From NCBI GenBank assembly GCA_001766655.1, contig MJCC01000003.1:1068480-1132479 (forward strand): a stretch of 64,000 nt of DNA, given 5' to 3'. Under the pieces are notes generated by a model, which did no database searches, had not been told where the DNA came from, and saw nothing but the letters and a program-made list of their open reading frames with translations. How positions within the stretch are numbered: position 1 is the stretch's first letter; each line of letters opens with the position of its first letter. Below, one piece after another: positions 11,844 through 50,810 of this stretch. This DNA is from Phytomonas francai (Eukaryota; Euglenozoa; Kinetoplastea; Trypanosomatida; Trypanosomatidae). Both the position numbers and the translations under genes were made by a program.

Positions 11844-13109
11844 GCAACATGAATGCTATCTTTACTTTGAGTTGATGTGTTGTTTATTTGCTTATTTATA
11901 TATTTCTATATATTATGTATGCATACGATGTCAGATGAACTTTTTATCATGGACCACTGCTGTACTAGACAATTAAAAGTGTTTGGAAAATACAAACCCT
12001 TTTAAGTTTGAGATATGGGTATTTCTTTAGTTTGGTAAGATATAAAGAGTGAAAACAAAAACGTGTATAGCTTCATGTCAATTGCATTAAAGCACCTGTG
12101 GGACTTATCAAAGTCACTTCAACTGATTTGAACAGAGTTCACGCATGTAGTTTAGCTTACAGATATTGTTTCCTAAAAGTTATGATTTTTTCCTAAAGAT
12201 TAAAAATTTAAAATAAATACAAGCTCCTTACACTTTTATGTGCTTTTGTCATTGAAGAGAGTATCTATAGATTTAAGGTGTTATGTTTGCTACTCTTCAT
12301 TTCGTCGCGGCCTCTTCATCTCTCTAAGGCGGGATTTCATGGGATAATACCACATTAACTTACAGTTCCTTATTATTCTTCGCGTGGGGGCTTTATGTGT
12401 ATTTTATATCTGAGCGCGAAGATGGTTATATTTATTCATTTTTCCTCAACGATATTCCGTCCTCCGAAAAGCATTATTTCCGAAATTCAAAGTTTCGCCT
12501 AGAACAAAAAAAAATGTAGATTGCTTGCATATATATAGGAATTTTGCAGTTCATAAACCTTACCCTATATCAATTTTTGAAACATATTCTTTTTCTTTTT
12601 CCCATGAATGAGTTTATGGTTATCAACCCTTACAATTTTCATCCTATGCCCCACTTTTGGCAAACAATTGAGACTGGCATACGGTAAGATATAATCGATA
12701 ACACATGATACCCATCTTTTTCCCCATTCTCAACCTAAAAGAAAAGTAGATCATAAAAATTAAAAACATTTAACTAAAATACTCAGACACCCACATTGGT
12801 AATTTGCATCGTGATGATCTCAGAAACGTGATTGAATACTTTAGATATAAACGAGTATTCGCAATCAATCCCGCTACTAGGATGCATCCTCAAGGCAAAG
12901 CAGTGTCGGGGGGGGAGGTGGAGGGCGCTAATTCACATAAGAAAGTGAACCCCAATCATGTGTGGTTCTCATTCCCCCATGCCAGGTGTGTTACAGGTTC
13001 GCATCGGAGCAGCCCCCGCTCCCGTGCCTCACCCCCGCGTCTCTCTCTCACGCGGGCCTGGGAGGGCTGTCTCCCTGTGCCCCCCCTTCCTCGAGGCTGC
13101 CAACCCCCT
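11844..13109. other. Intergenic region between PEX11 and MYST acetyltransferase
   Basis: About 1.27 kb. The first kilobase is AT-rich without recognisable genes. From about 12,900 the sequence turns G/C-rich (an 8-G run near 12,909; C-rich 13,010-13,109) and merges into the GC-rich PEX11 gene. Long frames here are antisense shadows. Confidence 0.6.
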
Positions 13110-13775
13110 TTACGCTGTCTTGGCCCAGTTCAGGTAGGTCGCGACGGAGCCCGAGACGCAGGTGAGGGCGCCCAGCGTCACGTTCGACGGCCGCCAGACC
13201 TCACGCAGGTAGCCGACGGCCGCCAGCGTGACCAGGACGTCCGCGCCGTCCTTCGTGAGGCTGATGATGGCGCCCTTGGCCTCCTTCTTGCACACGGCGG
13301 GGTCGGCCACGCGCTTCGCGAGGGCCCCACGGAGCGCCAGGAGGTCCAGAACCGCGGCGAAGAAGAAGCCCCAGAACTGCGCCACCTTCGAGAGCCGCGC
13401 TATCGGCTTCGCCGACAGTGGCACGAGCTTGTGCTTCGCGATGAACGCGAGGTTGTCGCCCAGGATGTAGAGCGCGTTGCCCAGGACGCGGAAGAACTCG
13501 AGCAACTTCTTCCCCTCGGTCCCCTGGACGCCCTTGGCCTGGAACCCGACGACCAGCTTCTGCATCTTCGGGACGTCGCCGACGAACTTGCCCATCCGCA
13601 TCAGTGAACGCGCGCTGCCGATGGAGTTCCCGATCGCCAGGTAGGCCTTCACGCTCGGGTCCTGGCTGTCCGTGATCGCCGCGAGGATCTTGAAAAAGCC
13701 GCCGAGAAATTTGTAAATTTTATCGCGGCCATCCGTCTGACCGAGGAGTTTAATCAGCCTTTCCAAATCCGTCAT
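13110..13775 (-). CDS. PEX11: Peroxin 11 (glycosomal/peroxisomal membrane protein), copy A
   Basis: 221 residues, ATG start. PEX11 proteins bend the peroxisomal or glycosomal membrane and drive its proliferation; in kinetoplastids they are abundant glycosomal membrane proteins. The N-terminus shows the family signature TDGRDKIYKFLGGFFKIL, an amphipathic helix, then RSLMRMGKF. Hydrophobic segments are at about 90-110 (LGNALYILGDNLAFIA), 130-150 (FWGFFFAAVLDLLAL) and near the C-terminus (VTLGALTCVSGSVATYL). Length is normal for the family. The next gene upstream (15,119-15,796) is a diverged copy, so the two probably arose by tandem duplication. Codon third positions are strongly G/C. Confidence 0.9.
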   Translation of the reverse strand: MTDLERLIKLLGQTDGRDKIYKFLGGFFKILAAITDSQDPSVKAYLAIGNSIGSARSLMRMGKFVGDVPKMQKLVVGFQAKGVQGTEGKKLLEFFRVLGNALYILGDNLAFIAKHKLVPLSAKPIARLSKVAQFWGFFFAAVLDLLALRGALAKRVADPAVCKKEAKGAIISLTKDGADVLVTLAAVGYLREVWRPSNVTLGALTCVSGSVATYLNWAKTA

Positions 13776-15118
13776 GGTGATAAGTGTAACGATTTTTTTC
13801 CGTAAAGGAGAAAAAAGTCAATCAGTTTGGTAGTGAGATGAAAATAAGAGAAAATTTAATAGCGTAAGAAAATGACTCGTAAAGCTGAGAAGATGACGAA
13901 AAAATCAAAAACAGGAAATAGAGAAGAAAAAGGGAAAGGAAAAAATGGGGTGAAGGCAGAGGGATATTAAAAGAGAGAATAATAGATACGAACTCAACAA
14001 AAGAAGTCATTTAAATTTCTAAATCACATATCACAAGATCTCAATTTTGTGTTTATGTATGTGTGTGTGTGTTTTAACCAAAAAAAAAAAAGTGAACATT
14101 ACTGCTTGATGATATACCCTAGGAAGTAATATTTAAAAATAAAAACTTGATCAAAACAATCATAATCACCTAAAACTTGCAAGTATTAATGGCGAGTGAC
14201 ACATGCTGATAAATATATTATTTTTTGCGAATTCGTTTTGCACAAGTACGCACAAGACATAATTAAATAAATATTTGAAATTGGAATGCGATAACCTGGG
14301 GCTGAAGTTAAATTGTTCAATAGGCTAACGCATTGAGTACGTACATACGGCTCCTCAGCACGTGTATTTAGTATGGGAAATCCCGCAAGTTCGAGAACCA
14401 TCATATGAATATAAATATATATTATCTATATACATTTATATTTCTATTTACTTGTCTAAAATATATTATAGCAAAGTCAAAATGTAAAAGCACTGCGGCA
14501 AGCTTATGCAAAACAAGTGCATCTACGCATTTTTAACAGAGAAATAATGCACGTACACGAAAAAAAAGGTATCTCCGTCTTCCCAATACCAATACATAAT
14601 GCCACAAATCGACTTCTTTTTATTTAGGAGGTGAGGGAAAAAAGAGAGAATTCGAATTCTGTAGGAAAAAGAGAAAACCTTAGAGAAGAAAAAATCCGGC
14701 GACATGGCGAACACAAATACACAGCCATGATCAAAAATACATTTGCTAACGATCGACAGGTATTGTTTCCCCTTTTTGCAATACTTTGCCACCTAGTTTA
14801 ATAACAATAATAATCATAAAATACCAATCGATAAACAAGAAAAATGAGCAACGTCCAAATTAAACCCAACAAATGTGTATATAACATTCACGTCTGCAGC
14901 GCCCTTTTTGAGGGAAAACGGTTTTTGTTTGTTTGCATAAACGGATCCTCTTTTGGAGGAAGGGGAGAGGGGGGAAGGCTCGGGAGGCAGAAGCCTTTTT
15001 CCCAATCCCCCTCCCATGTATCCCCCCCCCNNNNNNNNNNNNNNNNNNNNNNNNNNNNNNNNNNNNNNNNNNNNNNNNNNNNNNNNNNNNNNNNNCCCCC
15101 CCCTCCCCCTCCGTTGCG
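13776..15118. other. Spacer between the two PEX11 genes, including an assembly gap
   Basis: About 1.34 kb. It is AT-rich to about 14,930, with a short TG repeat near 14,057-14,071, then C-rich around the unresolved stretch 15,031-15,095. A 72-codon ATG frame at 14,186-14,404 (minus) is weak and discussed in the findings. Confidence 0.65.
15031..15095. other. Assembly gap (65 N) flanked by poly-C
   Basis: Sixty-five unresolved bases sit between about ten C on the left and nine C on the right. The true sequence is probably a long C/G homopolymer or C-rich tract that the assembler could not cross. It lies just downstream of the second PEX11 stop codon, so no coding sequence appears to be lost, but the 3' UTR is incomplete. 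Confidence 0.95.
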
Positions 15119-15796
15119 TTACCGCATCCCGCGCCAGTGCGAGCCGAGGGCGAGGGCGGCGGCGAGGGCCGAGAGCCCGCCAACGACGCGCTCGTCCCGC
15201 GCGAGGGCGGGGCCGAGGTAGCCGAGCGCGGCGGCGTTCGCGAGGGCGTCGAGGGTGTCGTGGACGGCGCGCAGGGCGGCGTTTGTGGCGGCGCGCGCGG
15301 CCGCCGGGGGGTCGTAGCGCCGCCGCCAGAGCGCCTCGCGGAAGTCCAAGGCGTCGACGCCGGCGGCCGCGACGTAGCCGAGGAACTGCAGCCGCCGCGC
15401 GCGCCGGGCGACGGGGCCGCGCGCGAGCCCGACGAGCCCCGCGCCCGCCACGAGCGCGAGGTTGTCGGCCACGATGAAGAGCCCGGAGAGCAGCAGCCGC
15501 ACGCACTCGAGCACGCGCCTCGGCGGGGCGTGCGCGGGGGGCAGGACGGCGAGGACGGCCACCAGCCCGCGCAGCTTGTGGGCCTCGGCGGCGAACTTGC
15601 CGAGGTTCATCACGGCGCGCGCGCCGCTGAGGAGGCCGACGGCGGCGCGGAAGGCCGCCGCGCGGGGGTCGCCGCGGCGCTCCGCCCCGACCGCGAGCAC
15701 GCGGAAGACGCCGGCGAGGAGCTTGTTGACCTTGTCCCGGCCATCGCACTCGGCGAGGAGGCGGAACGCCTTCGAGACGTCGGCCTCGGAGAGCAT
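15119..15796 (-). CDS. PEX11: Peroxin 11 paralogue, copy B
   Basis: 225 residues, ATG start. Alignment by eye to copy A: CDGRDKVNKLLAGVFRVL against TDGRDKIYKFLGGFFKIL, then GARAVMNLGKFAAEAHKL against SARSLMRMGKFVGDVPKM, then FIVADNLALVA against YILGDNLAFIA, in the same order and spacing. It should be a glycosomal/peroxisomal membrane-shaping protein like its neighbour. Composition is extreme: the protein is dominated by Ala, Arg, Leu and Gly, and almost every third codon position is G or C. The two copies are clearly diverged, so the duplication is not recent, or composition drift was strong. Confidence 0.87.
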   Translation of the reverse strand: MLSEADVSKAFRLLAECDGRDKVNKLLAGVFRVLAVGAERRGDPRAAAFRAAVGLLSGARAVMNLGKFAAEAHKLRGLVAVLAVLPPAHAPPRRVLECVRLLLSGLFIVADNLALVAGAGLVGLARGPVARRARRLQFLGYVAAAGVDALDFREALWRRRYDPPAAARAATNAALRAVHDTLDALANAAALGYLGPALARDERVVGGLSALAAALALGSHWRGMR

Positions 15797-16260
15797 ATCA
15801 CACGGCGACGACGACGACGACGACGGCGGTCCGGTCGGGGGTGGTCTGCCCGAAGGCCGCGGAGGATGGCTTGGCTGGAATACGAATACAAACGCACCCT
15901 AGGGATGGGGTGCGGATGCGATGGTAGGATGCGGTAGACTTTTGTGTAGGTTTCGAAAGCTGTAAAAAGTAAGCAAGGCAAGAAAAATAAAGTGGGGTGG
16001 AGGAGAGAAGAAAGATAAAAGTCGCCTGCAATCCTCGAAATCCAAACACCTAAATTGGCGCTTTGTCCAGATCGCTGTTACCCAGTACAAGTCTTCTCTC
16101 TTTTACACACACACACACGTGTTTGGACATAGAAGCAATATATGTATGAAATGCGTAATTGAATAGATCAATGGGATGATGTGAAGAAAAAAAAGAATTA
16201 AGGATTTAATTCGTGATTTAATCCAGAGGGAAGAGATAAAAAAGACGCATCGTAATTAAA
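15797..16260. other. Intergenic region between HD hydrolase and PEX11 copy B
   Basis: A GC-rich margin (GAC/GACG repeats at 15,804-15,830) passes into AT-rich sequence with a CA repeat near 16,105-16,120. A pyrimidine-rich tract on the minus sense around 15,970-16,030 could serve the PEX11 splice acceptor. No gene seen. Confidence 0.6.
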
Positions 16261-17672: not shown

Positions 17673-20600
17673 TTAGTAATAAAGGTTGCTGTAGTAGTTG
17701 TATTTATTCAAATACACCGGTGAAACGAACTTCTTACTGTAGTACTCCTGAAAAGTAACGTTGATTTGCTGGAGGAGGCACTCAATATGGGTAGTGATGA
17801 CATTACTCCCGAGGTCCTGCAAGAGGGTGAAGTCGAGCCCGACGTAGGCCGGGAATTCACTCCGCTCGACCTGCTCCCAATCCACCTTGACGTTATCCTC
17901 GTCCTCCTCGGCCTCGGCCTTGCCGCCGCCGAGCATCACGGAGGAGAGCAGATGAAAGCGCTTCCAGCGATTCCGAAAGTACTGCAGCTTCCGCGAGACG
18001 TCGCCGGTCTCGAGGAATTTGATCGCGAGGAGGACGCAGGCCGCGAGGACGACCTTGCGATTCGCCTTGCCCACCATCCCTTGAACGACCAATCGCTCAA
18101 AATACCAATACGCGTGGGCGACCGTCGACAGCTCCAGCGGGGAGTCCTCCTCGAGCGCGTAGACGAGGAGCTCGTTTTTGATCTTGCGCAGGTGCGTGAG
18201 CTTGACCCCGCAGACCTCGAGCTCGGGGTGCTGGACGTAGAAGTGGTTGTTCAGGTCCTTCTTCAGGATCTTCTTGTCCACAAACGAGATCACGGAGGTG
18301 CGGTAGGAGGGCAAAACGATGAGCTTCTTCCGCCGCTCCCCACCGGTGATGTTGCCGCTGTCGAGGAAAAACGCGTTGTAAAAGGCGGGGTTATCGCGGT
18401 AGACGTGGCGTTTGAGCATCTTTCGATAGCTCCGCATGTGCTTCGTGTAATGCGAGTCCTTCTCCCCTCGGCCGCTCTGCGAGCTCCGACTCGTCGAGGA
18501 AGAAGAAGAAGAAGAGGAGGAAGAGCTGCCATGATTGCTTTTCCGTTTAATTCGACTACTACCACTGCTACCACTACGGCTGGTATTTCGGCTATAACGA
18601 AAGCTGTTATTGGCGGTATTGGTGGTGGTATGATGATGGTGATGATTACTTTTGTGATGCCCGCCCGCTCGGCTGGAGTTGGTCGAAGACGACGAACGAC
18701 TTCGCGAGCGCGTGGCCGAGCTCGAGGCCTCCCCGACGTCCTCGTAGTTTCCGCGCAAAAACTGGCTGTTGACGACGAAATCCTGATACGTGTCCTCCTC
18801 CGCGAGGCCTCCCGCGTCCGCGCCCTCCCGCGCATCGCCGTGGTTCCTCTCCTCCACTTCTTTTCCGTACGAATTTGCCAAAGCGGGGGGATGATTTCGA
18901 TTATGCGCGGGCGGGCGCGATTTATTATGCCGCGTCCGCGCGTTCCGGCGGGCGAGGCTGGAGGACCGCGAGGAGCTCCCCCCGTGCGAGTGTTTCCGTC
19001 TCGTCCAGGACGCGCGGCGGACGGGCGGGGCGTGGGAGCCGTGCGAGGCGTTGTCGGAAAAGGACTCCCCGCGGAAGGGCATCACGACGTGCTGCTCCCG
19101 CCATTGCAGAATGTCCTGCGGGGCGAATCGCGTCAGGATCGTGCAGAGCGAAATCGGCGCGGCCGCCGCCGCCGCGAGCTGCTTGACCTCCCAGTACGCA
19201 TCCCACCGCGAGCGCCTTTTTTTTTTTCGACGACGTCGTCGTTTCGCTTTTCGCCGCCGCCGGCGACGATGGCGATGCGAGCGATCGGAGGCCGGGGAGG
19301 AGGAAAAGGAAGACGACGACGACGACGAAGAAGAGGCGCTAAGGGACCCCGAGGAAGACGAAGAAGTGGTCGAGGAAGACGTCGTCGATGTCGATGAGCT
19401 CTGCGGTGAGGACAGAGAAGAACGCGGAAAAGTGCTTTTCCTCCGAGAAGGGATGCGGATATCGCCTCTGCCACCATCCGTGAATGCTGTCTTCAAAAAG
19501 GAGGAGGGGTTTTCACCAGATTTGAAACCCGATGCTCTTGTAGAAGAAGAAGAAGAGGAAGAGCTTCCAGACCTTTTACGAGCGCTCCGGTGATTAGGGA
19601 CATTCGGCCGCGCCTTTCGCACACGTTCTTTTTTCTGTCCATTACTACGGGCCGCATTAGCAGAAGCCGTGGCTGCCTCCTCTAACGCAAACAAAGGGGC
19701 TGCTGCGGGGGGAAGAGGTGGAATTGGCAATACGGAGTGATTCGACGAGAACGAAAGCCGTGGATTGATTTCAGAATGCGTCAACGAAATAAATCTCATT
19801 CGCACATTCTGCCCCTGTTTTCGGACTAAATTGCGCACGTTAAGGGTGTTATTTCGCAGAGGTTGCTGTGGAATCTGCGACGGAGATAATGTAGAGCCTG
19901 GGATCCCGGAGTGCGGAAGATTATTCTTCAAAAAATGCGACGTATTCGAGCCTTCCCAAGAGGTTCGCGTTTTACTCAACGAAGAAGAAGAAGAAGAAGA
20001 GGAGGAAAAAGAGGATGACGACGACGACGACGAATGACTTTTTGCTCGCCCCCTACGATTCCCTGTTGGTTTCGTGCTGATATTCGATAAAAAGTTGATC
20101 TGAATTTGGCTTCGTATGATTCCGGAGGGGGGTAATGCCTTAGGTGTGGGCTTTGCGCGGGGTGCGACCTCTGAGGAGGGAGTTAGTGATAGATTATGCT
20201 CTACCTTCACTTGCGTATCCTTGCCTAACTTCATTGTATTTTCACATTCATCGACCCCTTCTTGATTATAGCTTGCAGAGTTAGCAGGATATTTGACTTT
20301 CAAATCCTCTTTATACTCCTTTGCGCGACTTTTTTCGGAGTAATTCTCCTCGGACGCGATCCTCATGCGCTCGTCTTGCTTTTCCGTTGCGTTGTTAGTT
20401 TTTGCAAGATCTGGATGTGGTTTGACCGTGTTGGTGTCAAATAACGCGAGGTATTGGCTCGTACGGCAGGCACCTAAAATTGCCGGGACTCCCCCCGCAA
20501 GCGTCGATGTCGCTGCTGATTTATTCTTATTCTTACTATCACTAATATTATTATGATTGTCTGTGCACTGAGAATGCAATTTCGCGCTATCGTTTCCATA

Positions 20601-22884: not shown

Positions 22885-23844
22885 TCAACTCACCCCCACC
22901 CCACTCCCCGCAGCCTCCTTCCCCACATCGTCGGGGCCGTGGGAGGAGGGGAGGGAGGGGGGCTTCTCGAGCTCGCCAAAGCGCCGAGGAAGGGTCATGA
23001 AATGCTCGGACGACCACAGCGCACGTTCCGAAAAATGATGCTCGTGCTTGCTAAAGAAACAAGACGCGAAGACGGGGGTGTCCGTCCAAAGCTTGTCGAT
23101 TTCCGACTTCGTCTCGGGCACCTCCTTGGGGAAAAAGTCCCAGGACCTGAGTTTGAGGTCGACGACCGGAAAGGGCTTCGACCTCCGGAGGGACGGGGAC
23201 GTCGTCGTGGTATCCGCGGCGTAGCTCGCGTGCGCGTTGTTGTCGATATCCGACGACGACGCGAGCCCTTTAGGGGAGTCCGTGATGCTGGACGGGTCCT
23301 CCAAGGGCGAGGAGTCCTCGCAGGGGGGGCTCGAGCAGGCCCTCCACCGCCCCCGCCCGATCGAGGCCGCGGCTTCCCCCGCGAGGGGGCTCGCCGAGGG
23401 GAGATCGGCCTCGAGGCCCCGCCCGGGGTCCGCCCGGCAGGCGCGCCAGAGGCTCTGGAGGTTGGCGAAGAACCCCACCGCGGAGGAGCACTCCGGCGGG
23501 ACGTAGGGGTGGGGGTCGACGGAGTCGAGCCAGCTCTGAATCGAGAGCTTGACCTCGGGGCTCGGCCGGGTCTGCATCGCCCCCCCCAGCGTACACACCT
23601 CCGTCATCAGACAGACATCATGCTGCGTCGACTGCCCGTTCGAGTTCGCCAGGATCGAGATCACGGCGTTTTTGTCGTACAGGGCGTTCGAGAAGAGCGG
23701 TTTGGAGTGATAGGTCTGCGGCAGGAGTCGATCACAATTAAGGCCCATCTCCGTCTGGAACGCATTATCGGCTAAAATTTTGCTCGAATGCGGCTTCGTA
23801 CGCATGGGGCCTTTCGGATAGGGATTTACATCTTTATCAGACAT
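22885..23844 (-). CDS. Hypothetical protein, 319 residues
   Basis: I do not recognise the family. Two ATGs compete: 23,868 (MIVDSVPS) and 23,844 (MSDKDVNPYP). The first AG after the long pyrimidine tract lies inside the upstream ATG-ATA-G, so trans-splicing there would remove it; I chose 23,844. The protein has no clear membrane segment. A Ser/Pro/Ala-rich middle (about 135-225) is flanked by more structured-looking parts (DKNAVISILANS; LKLRSWDFFPKEVPETKSEIDKLW). The centre is much richer in G+C than the ends. Third-position bias and the lack of stops over 320 codons support coding, but the GC-rich block also opens long antisense frames, so coding here is less certain than in neighbouring genes. 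Confidence 0.6.
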   Translation of the reverse strand: MSDKDVNPYPKGPMRTKPHSSKILADNAFQTEMGLNCDRLLPQTYHSKPLFSNALYDKNAVISILANSNGQSTQHDVCLMTEVCTLGGAMQTRPSPEVKLSIQSWLDSVDPHPYVPPECSSAVGFFANLQSLWRACRADPGRGLEADLPSASPLAGEAAASIGRGRWRACSSPPCEDSSPLEDPSSITDSPKGLASSSDIDNNAHASYAADTTTTSPSLRRSKPFPVVDLKLRSWDFFPKEVPETKSEIDKLWTDTPVFASCFFSKHEHHFSERALWSSEHFMTLPRRFGELEKPPSLPSSHGPDDVGKEAAGSGVGVS

Positions 23845-25537: not shown

Positions 25538-25804
25538 CAGCGTGTATGAATAATATTTAAGGAATACAAAAGTATAAGGTAATGGAAGCCTAAGAGGCTA
25601 CACACACTGAGGGAAGCATAATAGTAAAAGTCAAATGCTGCGTTACTTCATGGCGGCGTTAACTTCCATCGTAACCTTTTTGGTCTATTAGCACGCTTTA
25701 ACGGGACACCGGTTAGAATCTAGTTTCATTCAACAATAAGAAAAGATGCGCTAGAGGCGAAACCAATAGGCAAGACGCCAGCGTAGCCCCACACCGATGC
25801 CGCC

Positions 25805-28102
25805 TCACGTGCGATAGTGATAGTACGCGCTCGCGCGCTTCAAAAGCGGCACCAACGCCTCCCCGCGGAAGCGCCCGAGCCCGCCGCCCTCCGCGGCCGC
25901 GATCTCGCTGTAGTACTCGAGGCCATCGCGGAAGGCGCCCCCCTCGCGCGTCTTCGCGGCGACGGCGACGGGGACGCCCTCGGAGGAGTGGTCGCCCGCC
26001 CCGAGCGGCGTCGCGTGGTCGGCGGCGACGGCCATCGCGGCGCCCGGCGGGAGGGCCTCCCAGAGGGCCGCCATCGCGGCCCCGCAGCGCCGCAGCGCCG
26101 CCAACTTCCGCGCCGCCTCGCGCGCGTGGCCGGCGTCGTCGACGGCCTTCACGTGGAGCACCGCGAAGTCGTAGGCCGCGGCCCCCCCCAAAGCGGACGG
26201 CGGCGAAGAGGGCCGCAGCCGCAGCCGCAGCCGCAGCCCCGCGAGGACGGCGTCGAGCTTCGCGTCGAGGTCCGGGAGGGCCTCGCGGGGGGGCGCGGGG
26301 AGCCCGCAGGCGGCCCCGACCCCGCGAATCACGCAGGTCGCGGCCACGAGGACGCCGCGGCGGCCGTGGCGGACGGCGAAGGCCGGCGCCCAGCCCTTTT
26401 TGGCGGCCCCGCGCAGGAGCAGGACGTTCGCGAGGCTCCGCCGCGGGCCCGGCGCCGTCCCGGCGGCCACGCCGCGGTTCTGCGCGCGCCGCGCGGCGTT
26501 GATCGGGTGGCCGCGGAGCCGCGCGATGAGCCGGGCCGAGGCGGCCTCGACAACCCGGCAGGTGTACGCGGCCGCGGCGTACTCGGCGTGGTCGCGGCCC
26601 ACCGTCGGCTCGCAGGGCCGCAAAAGAAGCCCGTCCATCAGGCAGTCCGTCCCGGTGATCTTGTCGGAGAGCCGCCCGGGGACGCCGGCGGCCGCGGCCG
26701 CCCGACGGGGCCCCGTGAGCGCGACCACGCAGCGGTGCCCCTTCGCGTGCCGGACCCGGATCGCGTGCGGGTAGGCGAAGGGCCGGCCCGCGAGGTCGGA
26801 CTCGACGGGGGTGCCGTCGAGCGCCGCGCAGAGCACCGCGGCCTCCCGCCCAAAGTCGCGATCGCAGCAGCGGCGAATCACGTACCGGGCGCCGTTCCTC
26901 GAGCGCGACGCCCCCGCCCGCTCCAACGCCGCGTCCTCGTCGCCGAAGCCGTCCTCGTCGGGGTCGGCGAAGGTCGCGAAATTGCACTTGAAGGCGAGGT
27001 CCTCGTCGTCAAGGGGGAGGCCCGCGCCCAGGGCCTCGTAGGCGCCGCGGCCGCGGTAGTACGCGTGGGGCGGGTAGCCAAACATGCTGAGGTGCGCCGT
27101 ATCGCTCCCGCAGCTCACGCCGGCCGTGTACGGATCCATCAGGCCGCTCGCCCCCGCGCGCGTCAGGCAATTAATCCCCGGGCATACAAATTCGTTATCC
27201 CGCTCACACAAAGAGCCGTCCTGGAGGCCCAAAATCGCGGGCATCTCACACCCGGGCTCACCCGGCGGCGGCGGCGGCGGCGGCTCGGAGGACGCAATCC
27301 GGGGCGGTACCCCAGCCACCACCTCGAGCGGGGTGCGGTTGCCAAGCTCGGGGTAGGTGTTGTCGGCAAGGCCGTCAATAATAAAGAGAACAATGGGGGC
27401 AGGGAACAAGGGCGCGCCGTAGGCACCCGCACCCGCGACCGTCGAGGGTGGCTGCACATCGTTTGGAAGCGCATTCAGAGCTTGCTGAAGTTTACGTGCA
27501 GACTCCTCGGAGAAGAGGTGCGCCGGGCCTCCAGCGAACCGAGACCCGTAGTTCTCCAAGGTCAAACCCGCAGAGAAGCGAGACAGCAGCATCGTCGAAC
27601 TCTTCGGCTGGGCGCTATCCCAGTCTGCCGGGAAGTCCGTTGATCTAAAATAAGCCGTAGCGCGGAGCAACGCCGCGATCGGTTGGGATGCGTCCAAGGA
27701 TGACTGGACATCAAAAGGCTTGAGCAAACGCTGGCGTTCCGTCGGCATGTGTGTGATGGGTACCTGTGGGATGACGTGTATGGGTGCTGACTTGTACACA
27801 CCGCTATCCACCTCCTCAAGCACATTCAGCCACGCCAGCATCTTGTCCGTTACGAGAAACAACTCCCCTTCAACCGGTTTGCAGGAAGCGGTGGCATCCG
27901 GAAGGTTAAGCATACACGGCGAACAGTCAGGAAAGTCAGGTAAGAGGTTTGTAAATAGTGGATATCGTCTGCTTGTTTTGGCTGTGCTGATGAATATGGC
28001 TTCGTCAGGGTTTGCAAGCCAGTAGATGTAATTGTTTTCGCCGCGCATGAGTGTGCCATAAACGAAAATCAAATGTCGGAAAACGGTGTCATCAGAATGC
28101 AT
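25805..28102 (-). CDS. Fusion: gamma-glutamylcyclotransferase-like domain + archaeal-type cofactor-independent phosphoglycerate mutase
   Basis: 765 residues from the first ATG (28,102; the frame continues only to a GTG). Residues about 10-115 resemble the gamma-glutamylcyclotransferase/AIG2 fold: FVYGTLMRG at 13-21, then VEGELFLV and LNVLEEV. From about 233 the protein matches the archaeal-type 2,3-bisphosphoglycerate-independent mutase (apgM), which converts 3- to 2-phosphoglycerate in glycolysis: IIDGLAD, GNRTPLEVV, CGSDTAHLSMFGY, YYRGRGAYEALGAG, CNFAT, LHVKAVDDAGH, ADHATPLGAGDHS. The metal and phosphoserine motifs look intact. A Pro/Cys-containing insertion of about 50 residues follows TPLEVV. 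The mutase half looks 75-85% G+C by eye, the cyclotransferase half close to 50%. No C-terminal SKL-like glycosomal signal is present (ends HYRT). Confidence 0.87.
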   Translation of the reverse strand: MHSDDTVFRHLIFVYGTLMRGENNYIYWLANPDEAIFISTAKTSRRYPLFTNLLPDFPDCSPCMLNLPDATASCKPVEGELFLVTDKMLAWLNVLEEVDSGVYKSAPIHVIPQVPITHMPTERQRLLKPFDVQSSLDASQPIAALLRATAYFRSTDFPADWDSAQPKSSTMLLSRFSAGLTLENYGSRFAGGPAHLFSEESARKLQQALNALPNDVQPPSTVAGAGAYGAPLFPAPIVLFIIDGLADNTYPELGNRTPLEVVAGVPPRIASSEPPPPPPPGEPGCEMPAILGLQDGSLCERDNEFVCPGINCLTRAGASGLMDPYTAGVSCGSDTAHLSMFGYPPHAYYRGRGAYEALGAGLPLDDEDLAFKCNFATFADPDEDGFGDEDAALERAGASRSRNGARYVIRRCCDRDFGREAAVLCAALDGTPVESDLAGRPFAYPHAIRVRHAKGHRCVVALTGPRRAAAAAGVPGRLSDKITGTDCLMDGLLLRPCEPTVGRDHAEYAAAAYTCRVVEAASARLIARLRGHPINAARRAQNRGVAAGTAPGPRRSLANVLLLRGAAKKGWAPAFAVRHGRRGVLVAATCVIRGVGAACGLPAPPREALPDLDAKLDAVLAGLRLRLRLRPSSPPSALGGAAAYDFAVLHVKAVDDAGHAREAARKLAALRRCGAAMAALWEALPPGAAMAVAADHATPLGAGDHSSEGVPVAVAAKTREGGAFRDGLEYYSEIAAAEGGGLGRFRGEALVPLLKRASAYYHYRT

Positions 28103-30087: not shown

Positions 30088-32943
30088 TTACTTAGATGCG
30101 AAATCATCTAGGATTCCCAAAAGAAGAGCCTGTGTACCGATGTAGGTCTTGCTACCCTCACCACGCCCGTTCACAGGGTTGTAAAACTCCCACCACCGAT
30201 TCCCATTCCGTATCGTCTCCGCCATGTCTAACCGCAGTTGAGTGTAAAAGTTATGCGTATCCCTGTCGATCTCTGAACCTGCGAGAATATCCAGGTATGT
30301 GGATTTAAGCGCGTACAAAAACATGAGGTTGACGGAAGGCCACACGTAGCCCATCCAGACGTTGCGATGCGGCAGCCCCGCCTCCCTCGCGCGTCGGACC
30401 GAATCGAAGGAAACGGACATGAGGCCGAATTTTGTCTGCAGTTCATCACGGGCGATTCGAATAGTCGCGCGAATCTTTTCCAGGTCCGATCGCACGACCC
30501 CGAGCATAACCGGGAAGAGGTTCGCATACCCGACGTAGGGGGAAAACGCTCGGGTCAGGCAGCCCGCACGATCCGCGTACCGCCCGCGAGCGCTATCCCA
30601 GTGCACCGCGGCGAGCTGAGCCTCCCAGTCCACATTCACGCTGGCGGGCAGGCCGAGGTGCACTACCTCGATGCGCGAAATGAGGCCGCTCAGCAGGGCA
30701 ACCCAGGAGAAAAGATCCACGTGGGCCTCCATGAAATGCTCGCCCGGGCAGAACGGCCGCGGGTAGTCGCTCATCCCGCTCGCGGGGAGGGTGTGGCCGT
30801 CCCGGGAGCGCCAGCGGTAGACGAGGAGGTCGGCCGGGTCCTCGCTGACCTCGCGCGGCCACGCCTCGAGCGGCCGTCGGCCTGCGCAGCCCTTCGCGAG
30901 CGCCTTCGTGGCCCCCCCGCACTGAGTCCGATGCCACCAGCCCCTCCATCGCTGCAAGGAGGGCAATATCGCCCGGAGAAAGCGCTCATCCGCGTGGACC
31001 TCCTCGGTATAATACGCCGGGGTGTTGCGCCTTTTCCGGGGGTTGGCCCGCTTCAAACGCGCCCCCTTGCGCTCCATCTCATTCAGCAGCTCCTGCAGCC
31101 CTAAAAGGATCGTCGGGGGGGCGCCAAAGCTCGTCCGCGCGTACCGCAGCTCCGCAGGCATGACGGAGCGAATCATGGCGGTAAACCCGGCGAGGTTAGG
31201 GATGAAACCGGTCTGGGGGTCCTGCGCGCCCACCAGCCAGGACGCAAGGACGTCCTTCACGATCTCTTTATTCCACCGAAGCTGGAATAAAAGCTGCAAT
31301 CCAGTCAGGGACTGCTGCCCAAACGCCTCATCGGTGCGTGAGCCCACGGACGCCATCGCGCTCGCCGCATAGCTGGATAAATTGAGCTGCTGGTCTGACC
31401 ACGGCGCCTGCGCGACTGCGATCTGATCCTGCAGCTCATCGGCGTTCGTTTCGACCACGAAATAGCGCCCGACGGCGAAGGAAATGGACCCAAAGGACTC
31501 CCCCAGGGTCTGCGTGAGGATGTGCTGATAGAGATCCCCTTTCACTCGGAACCCGTTCACCCAGTTCCGACAAATACCACGCATATGCCGCATCACCGCC
31601 TTTTCACGTCGACGGAAGATGTTGGAGAGCTGACAGGAAGTCAGCCCCTCGTAGGTCGGGGGCGGCTGCGCTCGCGAGGATGGTTCGGAGCCCGCCTTGA
31701 GTGCTTTTCCAGTTCCTTCAGAGACCGGCTCGGATTGCACCGGGCTCAACGAAAGCTCGAGCCTGAAGTCCGTATTGTAGAACTTTTTCATTACCACCAC
31801 GTTATGTTCGGTCGCGCCGGTGCCAACATTTCCGTTGGGCGATCGAAAGCTGGATTGGTCGGCGGACTCGATGTAGGTAAAGGCTGTACTTGGCAGGTTT
31901 CGAAGATCGAGTTTTTGCTTTTGCAATTGGCGGGCCTGATGGCCGAACGCAATGCCCTTACCGGACATCATCGCGCGCTCATCTGGAGTTCCACCAACTG
32001 TATACGCGGTCGAAAGGGCAAAACCATCGTCGATGTTGGTCTGAAGGCCGTAGATACGCCATGGGGCCGTGTCGTATAACGGGCTGTGATGGTCATAAAC
32101 ACGCACTTTAAACGCTTCCTTTTCTGAGCGATGGTTAAGGAGTTTGCTCTTGAGGACTGGACTCCAGTCGCCATCGTTATGCCCATCCGGGGCCTCGACC
32201 CTCACCGCCTCGTTCATATCCGCGTTCGCAACGTAAAGCACGAAGTCGATCGGGCTCTCCACGCGGGCGTGCACACGAACATGCCATGCGTTCCCAGAAG
32301 GACTTTTTAAAAATTCTACGTCCATCTGAAGTTTGTTCGCCGTATCTACCACTATTTGCTTGCCGTAGTGAATTCCATCGTGGGTAATCCAACGAATTTT
32401 CATCATTTCCGGATCCGAGCCAAATTTGTACGTCGTGCGTGGGGCCCTAACTTTGTTATGTGTAAACGTCATAACGTGCCGTAGATGATACGCCCCCGGC
32501 GTATCGTACCATGCGATCCCTACGACAACGGGTTGAGCGGAGCGACTCTTCAACGCGAAAATATGGCTGGGCTCATAAGTCCCCCAAAACATTGAAAGAT
32601 TGTAGGCATCCGATAGATACAATGGCGGGTTACTAAAGTAGCTGGTGTACTCCCTCTCGATAGCCTCCACGGTGGGATCGGGCCTAAAGAACTTATCTCC
32701 CGCACGGCATCGAAGGTGTTCAAAAATAAAGAAAGGAGTGAAGTAATACACCAACATTAGAGGGATACCTAACGCAAGGATAAGAAAGGAGATGTAGAAA
32801 ATGATACCTTTACGGCGTTCATGCCGTACGATGCGCTTATGCCGCTCCTTTTTTTCATCCTCCGTTGGGTCCGGCATCGAGACTAAAGCGGCGGAGGTTC
32901 CATCTACCGCGTTTCGATGCGCAAGCGAACGCCTATCACGCAT
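30088..32943 (-). CDS. Mannosyl-oligosaccharide glucosidase (ER glucosidase I, GH63)
   Basis: 951 residues from the first ATG (32,943; upstream TTG rejected). Glucosidase I removes the outermost alpha-1,2-glucose from N-linked glycans in the ER lumen. A cytosolic basic tail is followed by one membrane anchor (about 46-70, FYISFLILALGIPLMLVYYF), giving type II topology as in glucosidase I. FWGTYEPSHIFALKSRS begins the catalytic part. SGMSDYPRPF and then EAHVDLFSW carry the conserved acidic residues (Glu739, Asp743), and WEFYNPVNGRGEGS closes the (alpha/alpha)6 barrel. The catalytic motifs look intact. Kinetoplastids generally transfer unglucosylated oligosaccharides, so this gene is unexpected. 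A block at about 30,550-31,100 is much more GC-rich than the rest. Confidence 0.9.
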   Translation of the reverse strand: MRDRRSLAHRNAVDGTSAALVSMPDPTEDEKKERHKRIVRHERRKGIIFYISFLILALGIPLMLVYYFTPFFIFEHLRCRAGDKFFRPDPTVEAIEREYTSYFSNPPLYLSDAYNLSMFWGTYEPSHIFALKSRSAQPVVVGIAWYDTPGAYHLRHVMTFTHNKVRAPRTTYKFGSDPEMMKIRWITHDGIHYGKQIVVDTANKLQMDVEFLKSPSGNAWHVRVHARVESPIDFVLYVANADMNEAVRVEAPDGHNDGDWSPVLKSKLLNHRSEKEAFKVRVYDHHSPLYDTAPWRIYGLQTNIDDGFALSTAYTVGGTPDERAMMSGKGIAFGHQARQLQKQKLDLRNLPSTAFTYIESADQSSFRSPNGNVGTGATEHNVVVMKKFYNTDFRLELSLSPVQSEPVSEGTGKALKAGSEPSSRAQPPPTYEGLTSCQLSNIFRRREKAVMRHMRGICRNWVNGFRVKGDLYQHILTQTLGESFGSISFAVGRYFVVETNADELQDQIAVAQAPWSDQQLNLSSYAASAMASVGSRTDEAFGQQSLTGLQLLFQLRWNKEIVKDVLASWLVGAQDPQTGFIPNLAGFTAMIRSVMPAELRYARTSFGAPPTILLGLQELLNEMERKGARLKRANPRKRRNTPAYYTEEVHADERFLRAILPSLQRWRGWWHRTQCGGATKALAKGCAGRRPLEAWPREVSEDPADLLVYRWRSRDGHTLPASGMSDYPRPFCPGEHFMEAHVDLFSWVALLSGLISRIEVVHLGLPASVNVDWEAQLAAVHWDSARGRYADRAGCLTRAFSPYVGYANLFPVMLGVVRSDLEKIRATIRIARDELQTKFGLMSVSFDSVRRAREAGLPHRNVWMGYVWPSVNLMFLYALKSTYLDILAGSEIDRDTHNFYTQLRLDMAETIRNGNRWWEFYNPVNGRGEGSKTYIGTQALLLGILDDFASK

Positions 32944-33335
32944 CAAGTCTAACTTTACGCGTCAAGATCTACAAGCAAAGGCTGAAATGGTTGCGTTTGG
33001 ATGAAGCGATAGGGAAAAAACTTTAATTAGCAAATTAAGAAAGAAATGTACTATCAATCGTTTAAAACTTAAACGACAGCACTGCTATATTTAAACTTCT
33101 TTTTGAATGAAAATAATAAAAAAAAAACGATAAAAGATAAAGAAAAGATTTGTTAGAGTTTATTGTTTTTGTTGTTTATTGCTCGCTTGTCTACAAAAAA
33201 AAAAAAAAGGCACTTCATCTCACCGCTCATATTTTCTTTCTACACCAAGACTTTGTTACCACATGTCCATTACCTAAAACGCTAGGGAAACGACTCAATT
33301 ATCCGTTCTCATTCAAAAATCGTATTATTGTATCG
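32944..33335. other. Intergenic region between the PPR-like gene and GH63 glucosidase
   Basis: About 390 bases, AT-rich with A runs (33,195-33,208). Nothing recognised apart from expected processing signals. Confidence 0.65.
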
Positions 33336-38020: not shown

Positions 38021-40165
38021 CTACTTCTCCATCAGACGTTTTCGCGCTGCGCGAACCCACATGGCAAGTGTATCTGCCAAGACACTTTCATTAGCTAACC
38101 GATTAGCCTCTTCCACGAAATCAGGAGAAGGAGTAGCTTCTAAAGATGAATGGCAGCGAAACTGATCCCTATTAGAATCATTTTCAGGGGAAGTGAAAAA
38201 ATTTAGAAACTGTGTTCCAGCAAACATATTTCGGACTAGATGCGGCGTTCGATTTAGAATGCTTTTGATGCGAAGACTATCAGGATTATCACAGAACAAC
38301 CAAAAAGCCGTGCGCTCTTTGAGACTGCCTGTAGGAACGATGATGTTCGTGGCTAACAAGATAGGTGGGCTTTGTGTGCCGCCAAAAATCACGAGCCCGG
38401 GGTTTTCGGAAGGGAGGGACAGCAGCTGAAACAGTGAGCCATGGCAGGTCGCGAATACCAAAGGCTCGGCGTCCTCGGCCCACGGGCCTCTCGATGCCGG
38501 GGCGTCCTTCCGAAAGGAATCGTACGCGTCGTGGCGCAGACCCCTCTCGTGGAGGGCCAGGACGGTCTGGTGCAGCCGCCGAGGGCTCAAAAAGGTGCCC
38601 GGCGTCGTTTGCGCGACGGCCACGGCCGCCTGCGGCGCGGAGTCCGCGCCAGGAGAGGCGGGTCGAAGGGGGTCGGCGACGCCAAAACTGACGACCTCCC
38701 TCTGGAGTGGGAAGGTGACCCGCTGCCAGGTGCAGTCGTGGAGGAGCATCGCCCAAACGGAAGGCTCGGGGGCCCCCTCGGCGCCCTGCCCGCCGACGAG
38801 CAGCAGGGCCTCCCCGCCGCGGGGGAGCGCGGTGATGGCGGCCCCGTGGAAGGCGCGGGCCGGGACCCCGCGGCGGAGCGGCACGAAGACCTCCCGCCAG
38901 ACCCTCGTGGAGGGGTCGAGGACGTGGAGGTCGCGCAGGGGGGCGCCGGCGCGCGCGAGGCCGCCGCAGACCCACAGGCGGTCGCCGTGGGCCGTCGCGC
39001 TGTGGCCGAAGCGGGGCGCGGGCGGCACGCCGAGGGTGGGCGCCGGCCCCGCCGACCACCCCCCGCCCCCCACGCGGACGACGAGGAGGTCGAAGCGCGG
39101 GAGGGGGGCGCGGCCGTCGGGGGTGCCGCCGAGGTAGGCGAAGGCGCGGCCCGGCGCGGCGCCCGGGAGCGCCGTCAGCGTCGCGAAGAGGCGCGGCGCG
39201 ACCGGGAGGTCGAAGGGGCCGCGGAGGAGGCGGGTCGTCGTGAAGTGCGCGCCCGGGGCGCCGCCGCGGGGGCGCCGGATGAGCGTCAGGCACTCCGCGG
39301 GCCGCGAGACCGCGGCGTAGCGCGCGTGGCGGAGGGCGGTGTGGGGGCCCGCCCCCGCAGGCACAGACGAAGCCCCCCCGATCACGAAGGAAAGATGCAG
39401 CTCGAAGTCCTCCGGGTGCGCCACGCGCTCGTGAAGGTAGCCCCGCGAGGTGGCGGGGCGGCAATCGCCCTGCGCCGTCGTCGTCGGTGCCCACCCGGAA
39501 GTAAGATGGGAGGTGACCATTTCGGGCGGAAGATCCACATACACCGCGCAGTGGCCGAACCGCGGCACATGTGCTTCACGCAGGAGCTCAACATCGTCCG
39601 TCACGGCTTGAAAGGCGGGATGAGAGAGCGGCCAATTAATGAGCTCGGCCAGCGATTCATCTTCCGGAAAGGGGACGTAGTCTACCGTCTGAGATTGCCC
39701 GCCACGCAATCCCGAGGTCTGTGAAACAGACCTCAGCTCTGCCAAATGAAACTGGGAGCCAACGCTACAGTTTACCACCGCTGCTCCACCATGCCAAAGG
39801 CCATATCGCGTGTGGGAACTATTTGGTGCGTGAGAAGTAAAGGTAATGAAACTAGATCCATACCAGGCCGGAACCGTCACGTATGCGGTAGTCTGCAGAA
39901 AAAAAGGCAGTGAATGTCCACCGTGCCCGTGCTCAACCTCCCCATCTGCCTCACTTACCCTGCTTAAGCTCACTGCACTATGGCATGAGCTCGAGCATCT
40001 CCCCTCACTTTCACGAAGTGGATAATAATAAATGGGGCGATCATTCGTATAATCGAAATCACACTCGTCCTCACTATCACACGGATCGTCTCGTTGGCGA
40101 TAAAAACGTCGGCGTTGCTCCCCGGAAGGAAATCCCTGATAGCCGTATTCAAACCAACTCCGCAT
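38021..40165 (-). CDS. Kelch-repeat beta-propeller protein
   Basis: 714 residues, ATG start. From about residue 190 to 500 there are kelch-like units: FGHCAVYVD, FVIGGASS, FAYLGGTPDG, RFGHSATAHGDRLWVCGGLA followed by DLHVLDPSTRVWREV, and FHGAAI followed by LLLVGGQG. The Gly-Gly pairs and spaced Tyr/Trp are the kelch consensus. A C-terminal segment (about 560-714) outside the propeller is helical with no recognised domain. Kelch propellers are protein-binding platforms, in some cases substrate adaptors for cullin ligases; two cullins are encoded 4-8 kb upstream, but that link is only positional. Base composition swings from about 35% G+C at both ends to about 80% in the propeller (38,440-39,500). 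Confidence 0.8.
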   Translation of the reverse strand: MRSWFEYGYQGFPSGEQRRRFYRQRDDPCDSEDECDFDYTNDRPIYYYPLRESEGRCSSSCHSAVSLSRVSEADGEVEHGHGGHSLPFFLQTTAYVTVPAWYGSSFITFTSHAPNSSHTRYGLWHGGAAVVNCSVGSQFHLAELRSVSQTSGLRGGQSQTVDYVPFPEDESLAELINWPLSHPAFQAVTDDVELLREAHVPRFGHCAVYVDLPPEMVTSHLTSGWAPTTTAQGDCRPATSRGYLHERVAHPEDFELHLSFVIGGASSVPAGAGPHTALRHARYAAVSRPAECLTLIRRPRGGAPGAHFTTTRLLRGPFDLPVAPRLFATLTALPGAAPGRAFAYLGGTPDGRAPLPRFDLLVVRVGGGGWSAGPAPTLGVPPAPRFGHSATAHGDRLWVCGGLARAGAPLRDLHVLDPSTRVWREVFVPLRRGVPARAFHGAAITALPRGGEALLLVGGQGAEGAPEPSVWAMLLHDCTWQRVTFPLQREVVSFGVADPLRPASPGADSAPQAAVAVAQTTPGTFLSPRRLHQTVLALHERGLRHDAYDSFRKDAPASRGPWAEDAEPLVFATCHGSLFQLLSLPSENPGLVIFGGTQSPPILLATNIIVPTGSLKERTAFWLFCDNPDSLRIKSILNRTPHLVRNMFAGTQFLNFFTSPENDSNRDQFRCHSSLEATPSPDFVEEANRLANESVLADTLAMWVRAARKRLMEK

Positions 40166-46392: not shown

Positions 46393-48783
46393 TTAAGGTA
46401 TAAATTTGTAAAGATTTTCAGACGCTTCTCGCAATACGTATTGTCTTTCGATTAGTTTATCAAGCACCATCTTAATATCATGTCGATTAATGTTAAAGTT
46501 AGCCAAAAGATTAGACACAGCCTCCTCAATCTTTCCAATAGAGAGAGGGCCATGCTCTTTCAAGGACTTTACAACGCAACCTTCAATAGCTATTCCTTTT
46601 TCTCTTTCTGAAGGTGCAACGCTTCGATCAGACTCGCTTTTATTTCTTTCTTGAACATTCTCGTGCTGAATGTCGGGAACTAGAAATATTTTCTTCCGGT
46701 TTGATCTGATGGCTTTGGTAACATAAACAGTTTTGGAGAGAGACGCGTAAGTAAATATATTCGCCTTTAAAAATTTGTCAAAATGCTTGCTAAATTCAAT
46801 GCGGCTCACGTCGAGTTTTTCTTCTAATTCTGTTAATTTCCAGGTTCTTTTTTCGTTGAACGCCATAGCTATCTGTAACTGGAGAGCAGAAAGAACTAGA
46901 CGGTGACTGTAATCTGTGGCATCATCCGTTCTCATACGAACAATACAAGTGGAGTAGTGTGGTAAAAAGGATAGACACTTCCCAGGAGAGATATCTTTTA
47001 CATAGGCCATGTGAAAATTTTCCAAAGCCTGATCCACATCTTTTATGAACAAACTGGTGTCCTGTTTGAAAGGTAACGCAAAGCCATCCCAAACAAATTT
47101 ATTTAGAACTATAGGTCGAAGATCAAATGGTACGTGGGTTGTTATTTTATAATCTGATCTGCGTATATAAACATCTTTCAACATAATCTGACAAGAGTGT
47201 ACAAAGTCAAAATTTCTCCCCTGTGAGAAAAGATCGCTAAGCATGCATTTCTCTTTCTGAAATGCGTCCTCATAACCTGCTTTCGTCTCGATCAGGTAAA
47301 TATTTTTTAATAAACGAGACTTAAGGAGCTTTATATACTTTGAGTGGAAAAACTCCTTTTTTTGAATCAGGCCATACATATCAGCAACCCAGTTGTCATT
47401 TACTTTTGAGTTATTGAACCAACTATCGGTTTCTCTGACTGCGTACACAGCTAGTGAATTGGCAATGCTCTCTGTAAGACTTTCATTCGACTGAATGTTT
47501 GATCCTTTGCACGAATCCAGAGCAATTTTAAGTCCATTAAGCATAGCGGCTAACAAAGGACTTTTTGCACCGAAAATATCTATAATCTTTTTCTTCTGTG
47601 CATAATATGTTTCCTTAATGAAGCCTAAATCTACTCCCGGCGTATCGTTTCCATGATCCTCTTGAATTAGCCTCATCATCAATTCGCCTGCCTTTTCCGA
47701 AACGTTTGATACAATGATATCCTCAACCCAGGAACTCGTTGGACCCGGACCAAGAAGTTCATAAAGGATGAACAGCCAAGACTTGCTTTTACTATCTTGA
47801 CTGTCATTTGCAAAGCAAGCTCTGACTAGGGGCCGTAAGTATTCCACTTCATCGTGCAAAAAGATCTCAGTGAAACGGTTTCGAACCTTTTCTAGGGATT
47901 GTTTGGACAAAGTGCACTTTACCAGAAATTCTTCCCTTTTTAAGGCACGGATATAGGTACGTATGTAATTCTCTGGTCCAAAGCGTTTGTAATTCGGTTT
48001 CTGTGTTGTATAAAAGTTGGTCATGTTGACCAAATAAGGATCCTCCAAAATCGAGAGGTAGAATTGCTGTCGACTGTCACTAAGCATCGATAGGTTTAAC
48101 GACAGCCGCTTTACATTTTCTATTGCGTCATAATCTACCTCATCACCATGACGCATTTTATTCACAGTGTTCATAGCACTAATCCTCAAACTTTCCCGAA
48201 CATCATCGGACAAAATATGCTCAGTCCAAATGTGTAGTGAGATGACCTCAGTAGGTAAAATGGTATGCTCATTCGGCAAGCCCACCTTTTGCCAGACCCA
48301 CTGTAAATATGTGAAAACACATTTTGTCATGTTTACTCCGGCCGAATATTTTTCGAATGAGTCAAGATAGGTGGAAATGGTATAGGACTCCATACTTAAG
48401 TTTTGTTTACTGTGAAGAACCTGTTTTTTTAGCAGCTCCCTAAATAAATAATAAACTACTAAAACTTGCGTGCATTCTTGATTGTCGCCAACAACCCGAG
48501 CAGTGTTCCCTCGCACTAGGGATGGGCAGTCCTGGCATGGATACGCTGTGAGTTTATAAACAAGTGCATGTGCCCTACAAAGATTAGCGTTCAACTCTCT
48601 ATATAAAACTGAAAGATCTTTTAAGGGATAATTCTCAAAAATAGAAAATGCCTGCATGCAAACCTCGTTTATAGTTCTCCAAAGGATTGGAAAACTAGTC
48701 CATGCTCCATCTTGAGCCGCTTGATTACTTGCAGGAAACACCTCAGGACTTACTTGAGAGTGTAAATTTGTAGATGATCGCAT
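46393..48783 (-). CDS. Cullin family protein, copy B
   Basis: 796 residues, ATG start, first gene of the minus-strand unit after the strand-switch region. The cullin-homology region is visible in RLVLSALQLQIAMAFNEKRTWKLTELEEKLDVS. The winged-helix end is EGCVVKSLKEHGPLSIGKIEEAV and then KMVLDKLIERQYVL, ending LYKFIP. The neddylated Lys position is kept (VKSLKEHG). Similarity to copy A is clear in the C-terminal third and weak elsewhere, so the two have probably taken different adaptors. Which human cullin is closest cannot be judged by eye. Confidence 0.83.
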   Translation of the reverse strand: MRSSTNLHSQVSPEVFPASNQAAQDGAWTSFPILWRTINEVCMQAFSIFENYPLKDLSVLYRELNANLCRAHALVYKLTAYPCQDCPSLVRGNTARVVGDNQECTQVLVVYYLFRELLKKQVLHSKQNLSMESYTISTYLDSFEKYSAGVNMTKCVFTYLQWVWQKVGLPNEHTILPTEVISLHIWTEHILSDDVRESLRISAMNTVNKMRHGDEVDYDAIENVKRLSLNLSMLSDSRQQFYLSILEDPYLVNMTNFYTTQKPNYKRFGPENYIRTYIRALKREEFLVKCTLSKQSLEKVRNRFTEIFLHDEVEYLRPLVRACFANDSQDSKSKSWLFILYELLGPGPTSSWVEDIIVSNVSEKAGELMMRLIQEDHGNDTPGVDLGFIKETYYAQKKKIIDIFGAKSPLLAAMLNGLKIALDSCKGSNIQSNESLTESIANSLAVYAVRETDSWFNNSKVNDNWVADMYGLIQKKEFFHSKYIKLLKSRLLKNIYLIETKAGYEDAFQKEKCMLSDLFSQGRNFDFVHSCQIMLKDVYIRRSDYKITTHVPFDLRPIVLNKFVWDGFALPFKQDTSLFIKDVDQALENFHMAYVKDISPGKCLSFLPHYSTCIVRMRTDDATDYSHRLVLSALQLQIAMAFNEKRTWKLTELEEKLDVSRIEFSKHFDKFLKANIFTYASLSKTVYVTKAIRSNRKKIFLVPDIQHENVQERNKSESDRSVAPSEREKGIAIEGCVVKSLKEHGPLSIGKIEEAVSNLLANFNINRHDIKMVLDKLIERQYVLREASENLYKFIP

Positions 48784-48823
48784 TTAATGCTTGAATAAAT
48801 GAGTTGAAAAATAAACTACATCT

Positions 48824-48835
<12 letters not shown>

Positions 48836-48860
<25 letters not shown>
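48836..48860. repeat. TA dinucleotide microsatellite
   Basis: About twelve TA units just upstream of the cullin B start codon. Confidence 0.85.
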
Positions 48861-50674: not shown

Positions 50675-50810
50675 AGTCTCGAGCATTGCATTTGGGGTTT
50701 GTCAGTAGTTGTGATAAGTGGATTGGTCTCTCTTTTCGTGTGTGTTTGTTACACTTTACTTCATTTTTTTTTTTCAAGATTTGAGTCGATTTTACATAAA
50801 ATTAGGATCC

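Follow-up and report, generated by a model that had tools for sequence, protein, structure and literature searches.

A cyclotransferase-like lobe fused to an archaeal-type mutase in Phytomonas francai and other kinetoplastids, with conserved residues lost from either half

Does one long frame on the minus strand of a Phytomonas francai contig encode a single protein with two enzyme-like halves, and in what state is each half? The frame lies at 25805..28102 of a 64,000-nucleotide stretch, the window, which covers positions 1,068,480-1,132,479 of contig MJCC01000003.1 (assembly GCA_001766655.1); all coordinates below are those of the window. An earlier note, made from the DNA letters, had read it as a gamma-glutamylcyclotransferase-like domain joined to an archaeal-type phosphoglycerate mutase. 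A single frame of P. francai does join a GGACT-type domain to an apgM-type mutase. The fusion itself is already visible in database annotation, and what is new is the absence from the P. francai mutase half of a motif that the compared relatives retain. The reading that we prefer, with a probability of roughly 0.6, is that of a conserved mutase core carrying a lobe with dispensable catalysis, the mutase being altered or failing in P. francai.

One frame and its two halves

The features of the gene are listed here by position, strand and content. Metal-ligand and nucleophile positions were located by alignment, and their roles are presumed from those known in the superfamily.

25805..28102, minus strand: uninterrupted frame encoding the whole fusion protein of 765 amino acids, start codon ATG at 28102, last base of the stop codon at 25805
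27509..28087, minus strand: GGACT-like N-terminal domain, residues 6-198 by structure
27785-28069, minus strand: Pfam core of the GGACT-like domain, residues 12-106
28049..28060, minus strand: YGTL motif, residues 15-18, corresponding to Tyr7-Leu10 of mammalian GGACT
27815..27817, minus strand: Glu96, present, counterpart of the GGACT catalytic Glu82
25808..27403, minus strand: apgM-type mutase half, residues 234-765
27374..27376, minus strand: Asp243, first presumed metal-ligand position
27104..27106, minus strand: Ser333 in GSDTAH, presumed nucleophile position
26126..26140, minus strand: DDAGH with Asp655 and His659, presumed metal-ligand positions
25988..26020, minus strand: DHATPLGAGDH with Asp695, His696 and His705, presumed metal-ligand positions
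26267..26302, minus strand: site of the relatives' GATGDYHS loop, where P. francai reads LPAPPREALPDL and the motif is absent
25751..27300, no strand: island rich in guanine plus cytosine (GC) over most of the mutase half, maximum 82% GC in 300-base windows

Three Pfam domains are found in the protein: GGACT (PF06094) at residues 12-106 with an E-value of 4.1e-10 (40.7 bits, cut-off 22.8), PhosphMutase (PF10143) at residues 315-535 with 1.3e-31 (110.2 bits, cut-off 21.5) and Metalloenzyme (PF01676) at residues 642-749 with 5.3e-16 (59.3 bits, cut-off 24.3). By sequence comparison the N-terminal half resembles human and mouse GGACT, and the C-terminal half the archaeal mutases 2zkt, 3idd and 3kd8. 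The predicted structure of the whole chain (predicted local distance difference test, pLDDT, 90; predicted template modelling score, pTM, 0.92) resembles the same two groups. The fold that had been proposed for each half is thus borne out by domain profiles, sequence matches and prediction. The list of structure matches consists mostly of matches to the mutase half, and the absence of a family from it carries no meaning. The strand opposite the gene holds an open stretch of 612 codons, taken as a by-product of high GC; the GC islands of the window give long open frames on both strands.

The join and its ancestry

Protein relatives were sought among 5.8 billion proteins, of which the 7992 candidates sharing most words with the query were scored, and 23 relatives resulted. 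Identity is 44-51% across 98-100% of the query in 18 of these, and all three Pfam domains are present in 18 of the 23. One relative, P0024, is truncated at its C-terminus. Four have no GGACT call: P0010 and P0014 keep the lobe with altered motifs, and P0022 and P0023 lack either the beginning or the greater part of the lobe. The named sources are Leishmania, Leptomonas, Lotmaria, Novymonas, Porcisia, Trypanosoma and Angomonas, the last represented by two partial models only. Searching with a profile built on the mutase half yielded 668 matches; the best 120 add Bodo saltans and further lobe-bearing sequences.

These records bear on the possibility that two genes were wrongly joined, or that the mutase has a messenger of its own, trans-spliced from inside the frame. 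A pyrimidine-rich stretch at the junction, near 27,381-27,412, would suit such a splice. The identical join occurs, however, in independent records from several genera; we therefore do not regard it as an artefact, and a fault of sequencing, raised in the earlier note, or of assembly is rejected on that ground. Between residue 120 and Asp243 the only methionine in P. francai is Met171, and the next, Met287, lies past Asp243; a protein made of the second half only would have to start at Met171 to include every metal-ligand position. The predicted model of the whole chain is also confident, and separate genes or messengers are hardly credible here.

The earlier note had treated the fusion as something unfamiliar. 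It is common to other kinetoplastids including Bodo saltans, and one public record, from Leishmania utingensis, already bears the name 'Gamma-glutamyl cyclotransferase, AIG2-like/Metalloenzyme superfamily'.

Two trees were used to place it, a quick one with 26 prokaryotic rows and a careful one of 54 rows, 12 of them prokaryotic, from which 14 prokaryotic rows belonging to one distant branch had been excluded. Repeat loci (L012-L015 and L017) were excluded from both, and P0028 is marked as a fusion in them despite lacking its N-terminus. Prokaryotes were sampled from two phyla, with loci from the 10 best matches per phylum; a scan of contigs gave 61 pattern matches and 5 confirmed loci. In the 54-row tree all eukaryotic rows form one clade with support of 100/100. 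Inside this clade, which also holds plants and fungi, the fusions and the lobe-less P0039 form a clade of their own (100/99), and the P. francai protein is placed inside a set of nine fusion rows (100/99). For P0039, loss of the lobe or an incomplete transcript therefore has to be assumed. Of the 12 prokaryotic rows those of Sulfolobales come closest (96/92); with a long stem of 1.29 and two phyla sampled, any origin of the eukaryotic clade read from this would be tentative.

On this evidence the fusion is old and conserved, and would have been inherited from an ancestor predating the split between Bodo and the trypanosomatids. The description of the mutase half as archaeal-type holds for homology and fold; by phylogeny it groups with plants, fungi and other eukaryotes. 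Since it lies among them, the idea that kinetoplastids alone acquired it laterally from archaea is rejected. Among the best 120 of the 668 matches are many stand-alone proteins of land plants and Mucoromycota, the nearest relatives of the mutase half outside the kinetoplastids within that list. Such proteins (among P0033-P0124) are annotated as phosphoglycerate mutase or as phosphonopyruvate decarboxylase-like. Stand-alone relatives of the GGACT lobe are weak (22 proteins at E-values up to 1e-5, the best 1.2e-12), and they point to no particular source of the lobe.

Residue losses in the lobe and in the core

The catalytic site of GGACT comprises Tyr7, Gly8, Thr9, Leu10, Ile50, Glu82, Tyr88, Tyr115 and Tyr143 according to PMC2954230, and Glu82 is named as the acid/base in PMC7022552. 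We tabulated seven of the nine positions in 30 fusion rows; Ile50 and Tyr143 were left unmapped, the shortened P0022, P0023, P0024 and P0028 were left out, as was P0039, which has no lobe. The seven positions are complete in 18 rows, P. francai (YGTLEYY) among them, and altered in 12. In 10 of the 30 the equivalent of Glu82 is lost and the lobe is kept. It has become Gln in P0007, P0008 and P0011 (L. martiniquensis, L. orientalis and L. utingensis), Leu in L. tarentolae, Lys in Porcisia, His in P0025, Ala in P0016, and Tyr or Phe in P0032, P0034 and P0036. L. major keeps the Glu, with Tyr7 replaced by Cys and Tyr88 by His; in T. congolense the only change is at Tyr88. For the six rows of Leishmania and Porcisia, changes fall on catalytic cells more often (12 of 42) than on other conserved cells (16 of 216; p 3e-4), these being related rows with a shared history. 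P0032, P0034 and P0036 have an N-terminal lobe that can still be aligned and from which most of the GGACT catalytic positions are gone.

The mutase half presents a different set of losses. Its seven metal and nucleophile positions read DSDHDHH in all 30 fusion rows, those with a decayed lobe included. The motif G-x-T-G, part of the GATGDYHS loop, is carried by 66 of 68 rows, among them all 26 from prokaryotes; P0023 (Angomonas) has VATG, with the first residue changed, and in P. francai the motif is absent. A frameshift hiding it is rejected: the two other frames of the strand at 26267..26302 do not encode it.

Conserved columns were compared on equal terms in 20 rows. Of the 116 mutase columns invariant in the other 19 rows, P. 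francai differs at 18, and the runner-up, P0026, at 8 of 106; in the GGACT half none of 20 such columns is changed in P. francai. With looser columns the P. francai counts are 27 of 181 for the mutase and 2 of 46 for GGACT. The count over 181 columns used slightly unequal column sets per row, and the recount on equal terms gave the same outcome. Further changes in P. francai hit three motifs, EHR at its Glu, APTC at its Pro and EPVP at a Pro, the last being variable also in P0039 and P0043.

The composition of the gene is uneven. GC content at third codon positions (GC3) is 0.93-0.96 in the mutase half, against 0.58 over the gene's first fifth. Of the 27 changed columns, nine gained Gly, Ala, Arg or Pro in place of a different residue and three changed in the reverse direction. 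GC islands of this kind occur elsewhere in the window, which has eight of 70-83% GC in an overall 47%, with GC3 near 1.0 in places:

13001-13350, 15101-15900, 18901-19200, 23151-23650, 25751-27300, 30551-31050, 38501-39550, 56551-57750: GC islands of the window

Such islands may be marks of GC-biased gene conversion, a process that could have produced the pattern in the mutase half.

From the aligned residues the two halves appear to lose conserved positions independently of each other, an observation that is new here. The catalysis of the lobe seems dispensable, and the lobe can apparently outlast it while the mutase core persists. Since the lobe stays after the catalytic loss, the suggestion that the first domain is a regulatory lobe is supported for some lineages, those that lost Glu82 or a Tyr and kept the lobe. 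The P. francai mutase, having lost the G-x-T-G loop and shifted at numerous conserved positions within a GC island, has probably lost its activity or altered it.

Several observations weigh against this reading. Three rows with decayed lobes have 32-44 of the 181 mutase columns changed, beyond P. francai, and stand outside the equal-terms set; as far as the alignment goes, lobe and core are not cleanly decoupled in them. Catalytic cells of these three are changed no more than others (13 of 21 against 65 of 108; p 1.0), the entire lobe having drifted, and there is no enrichment in Trypanosoma either (3 of 42 against 7 of 216; p 0.21). For P. francai, the seven intact metal and nucleophile positions would speak against a dead enzyme, an effect of the missing G-x-T-G on activity is something that we infer, and the assembly may be locally at fault at the lost loop.

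Accordingly, the P. francai mutase half could still be normal, with GC-driven swaps of tolerated residues and a neighbouring loop in the role of the lost motif. The intact metal ligands and serine, the well-predicted fold, the island over this half and the nine-to-three bias toward Gly, Ala, Arg or Pro are all compatible with that. The presence of the motif in all 67 other rows, once with an altered first residue and as far as the prokaryotes, and the changes at EHR, APTC and EPVP argue against it, and we consider a normal mutase possible and rather improbable.

Another alternative is a truly bifunctional enzyme with both sites in one pathway, for example the clearance of gamma-glutamylamines and of phosphorylated acids in salvage or metabolite repair, where the join would keep the two in step. 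Bodo, four other bodonid-like rows, six rows labelled as other Leishmaniinae and four of six Trypanosoma rows have every tabulated residue of both sites, and the join is kept across the clade. Against this, the catalytic Glu is gone in a third of the tabulated rows (10 of 30) with the lobe retained, and we know of no pathway that needs both a cyclotransferase and a mutase reaction. We think such an enzyme unlikely.

Possible function and known systems

In the reading of a conserved core with a dispensable lobe, the C-terminal half would belong to the apgM branch of the alkaline phosphatase superfamily and act as a phosphoryl-transfer enzyme with a binuclear metal site. Ser333 would be phosphorylated with the help of two divalent metals, and the phosphate either returned to the substrate, as in a mutase, or passed to water, as in a phosphatase, a mechanism assumed from the superfamily; the expected substrate is a phosphoglycerate-like acid. 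The GGACT-type lobe retains its tabulated active-site residues in Bodo and in the majority of trypanosomatid rows, and where intact it would release 5-oxoproline from gamma-glutamylamines. In the several lineages without the catalytic Glu or Tyr the retained lobe may act on the mutase as a structural or regulatory element. In P. francai it would be the mutase half that has changed: the metal ligands stay, the G-x-T-G loop is gone and conserved positions are shifted, in a GC-rich island.

A coupling of glycolysis to thiol metabolism had been considered in the earlier note. The nearest solved structures of the N-terminal half are gamma-glutamylamine cyclotransferases, ahead of those that act on glutathione, and thiol turnover is therefore not indicated; the Bodo lobe was also matched. 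Nor is the fusion likely to be tied to the main glycolytic flux. In the P. francai assembly of 17.4 Mb the whole fusion protein has one match and GGACT one match, and the one further metalloenzyme match is a plant-type cofactor-independent phosphoglycerate mutase (L002, G000:C36:102598-104178; 370 bits, cut-off 331), likely the glycolytic enzyme. With this separate mutase in the same genome, the fusion is unlikely to be the main glycolytic one, and its substrate is perhaps not glycolytic. A glycosomal enzyme was rejected: inspection of 10 fusions by eye showed no obvious targeting tripeptide at the C-terminus.

The fusion might serve as a back-up or second glycolytic phosphoglycerate mutase, given its homology to archaeal mutases and the many records annotated as phosphoglycerate mutase. 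Apart from the plant-type enzyme, the scores disagree with this: P. francai reaches 199.5 bits against the curated cut-off of 320 for TIGR00306 (apgM), and all six kinetoplastid fusions tested, P. francai included, stay below it, to which inserts in the fusions may contribute. We hold a back-up mutase to be quite improbable.

A more speculative proposal, which we regard as doubtful, pictures an enzyme with two heads, either of which can turn into a pseudoenzyme. In Leishmania and Porcisia the cyclotransferase would be dead and the lobe a regulator of the mutase; in P. francai the mutase, its substrate loop lost by GC-biased conversion in a recombination hot spot, would be a scaffold for a working cyclotransferase.

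Compared with the other kinetoplastid fusions, P. francai has the same domains, order, length class and clade, and differs in the missing G-x-T-G loop and in the most changed mutase half of the 20 equal-terms rows. The archaeal apgM proteins (Pyrococcus PH0037, 2zkt; Thermoplasma, 3idd and 3kd8) have the fold and the seven metal and nucleophile positions in common with it; they have no GGACT lobe and possess the GATG loop. GGACT/A2LD1 (3jub, 3juc, 3jud, 1vkb) shares the fold, Tyr7-Leu10, Glu82, Tyr88 and Tyr115, and is a stand-alone chain of about 150 amino acids, whereas the P. francai lobe is fused and its activity predicted. The stand-alone apgM-like proteins of plants and Mucoromycota have no lobe, and the two tested (P0044 and P0092), one from a fungus and one from maize, score above the apgM cut-off. 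The plant-type cofactor-independent mutase of kinetoplastids (3nvl, 3igy, and the P. francai copy) is distant kin from the same metalloenzyme superfamily with an architecture different from that of the fusion.

Foster et al. 2010 (PMC2964296) report archaeal-type mutases in bacteria, and the accessible part of that paper does not describe a kinetoplastid one. Passages in PMC8406214, PMC9512073 and PMC12697944 mention phosphoglycerate mutase in general terms. Text searches of the literature, whose coverage leaves out most subscription papers, found no description of the fusion, and the literature search found none of a function for the plant and fungal apgM-like branch.

If our reading is correct, what is recorded in trypanosomatids as an ordinary glycolytic mutase gene encodes a two-domain protein of which lobe and core erode separately, and its lineages are natural test cases for a pseudoenzyme lobe. 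It would also draw attention to the apgM-like branch in plants and fungi, and GC islands would be able to wear down a conserved enzyme. The case is of interest for enzyme evolution and modest as a discovery.

Elsewhere in the window, the longest frames lie on the minus strand to the left of 48783-50718 and on the plus strand to the right, and this interval resembles the strand-switch regions from which kinetoplastid gene clusters diverge. The neighbouring gene at 30088-32946 (minus strand) encodes a GH63-type glucosidase with the N-terminal and C-terminal Pfam domains.
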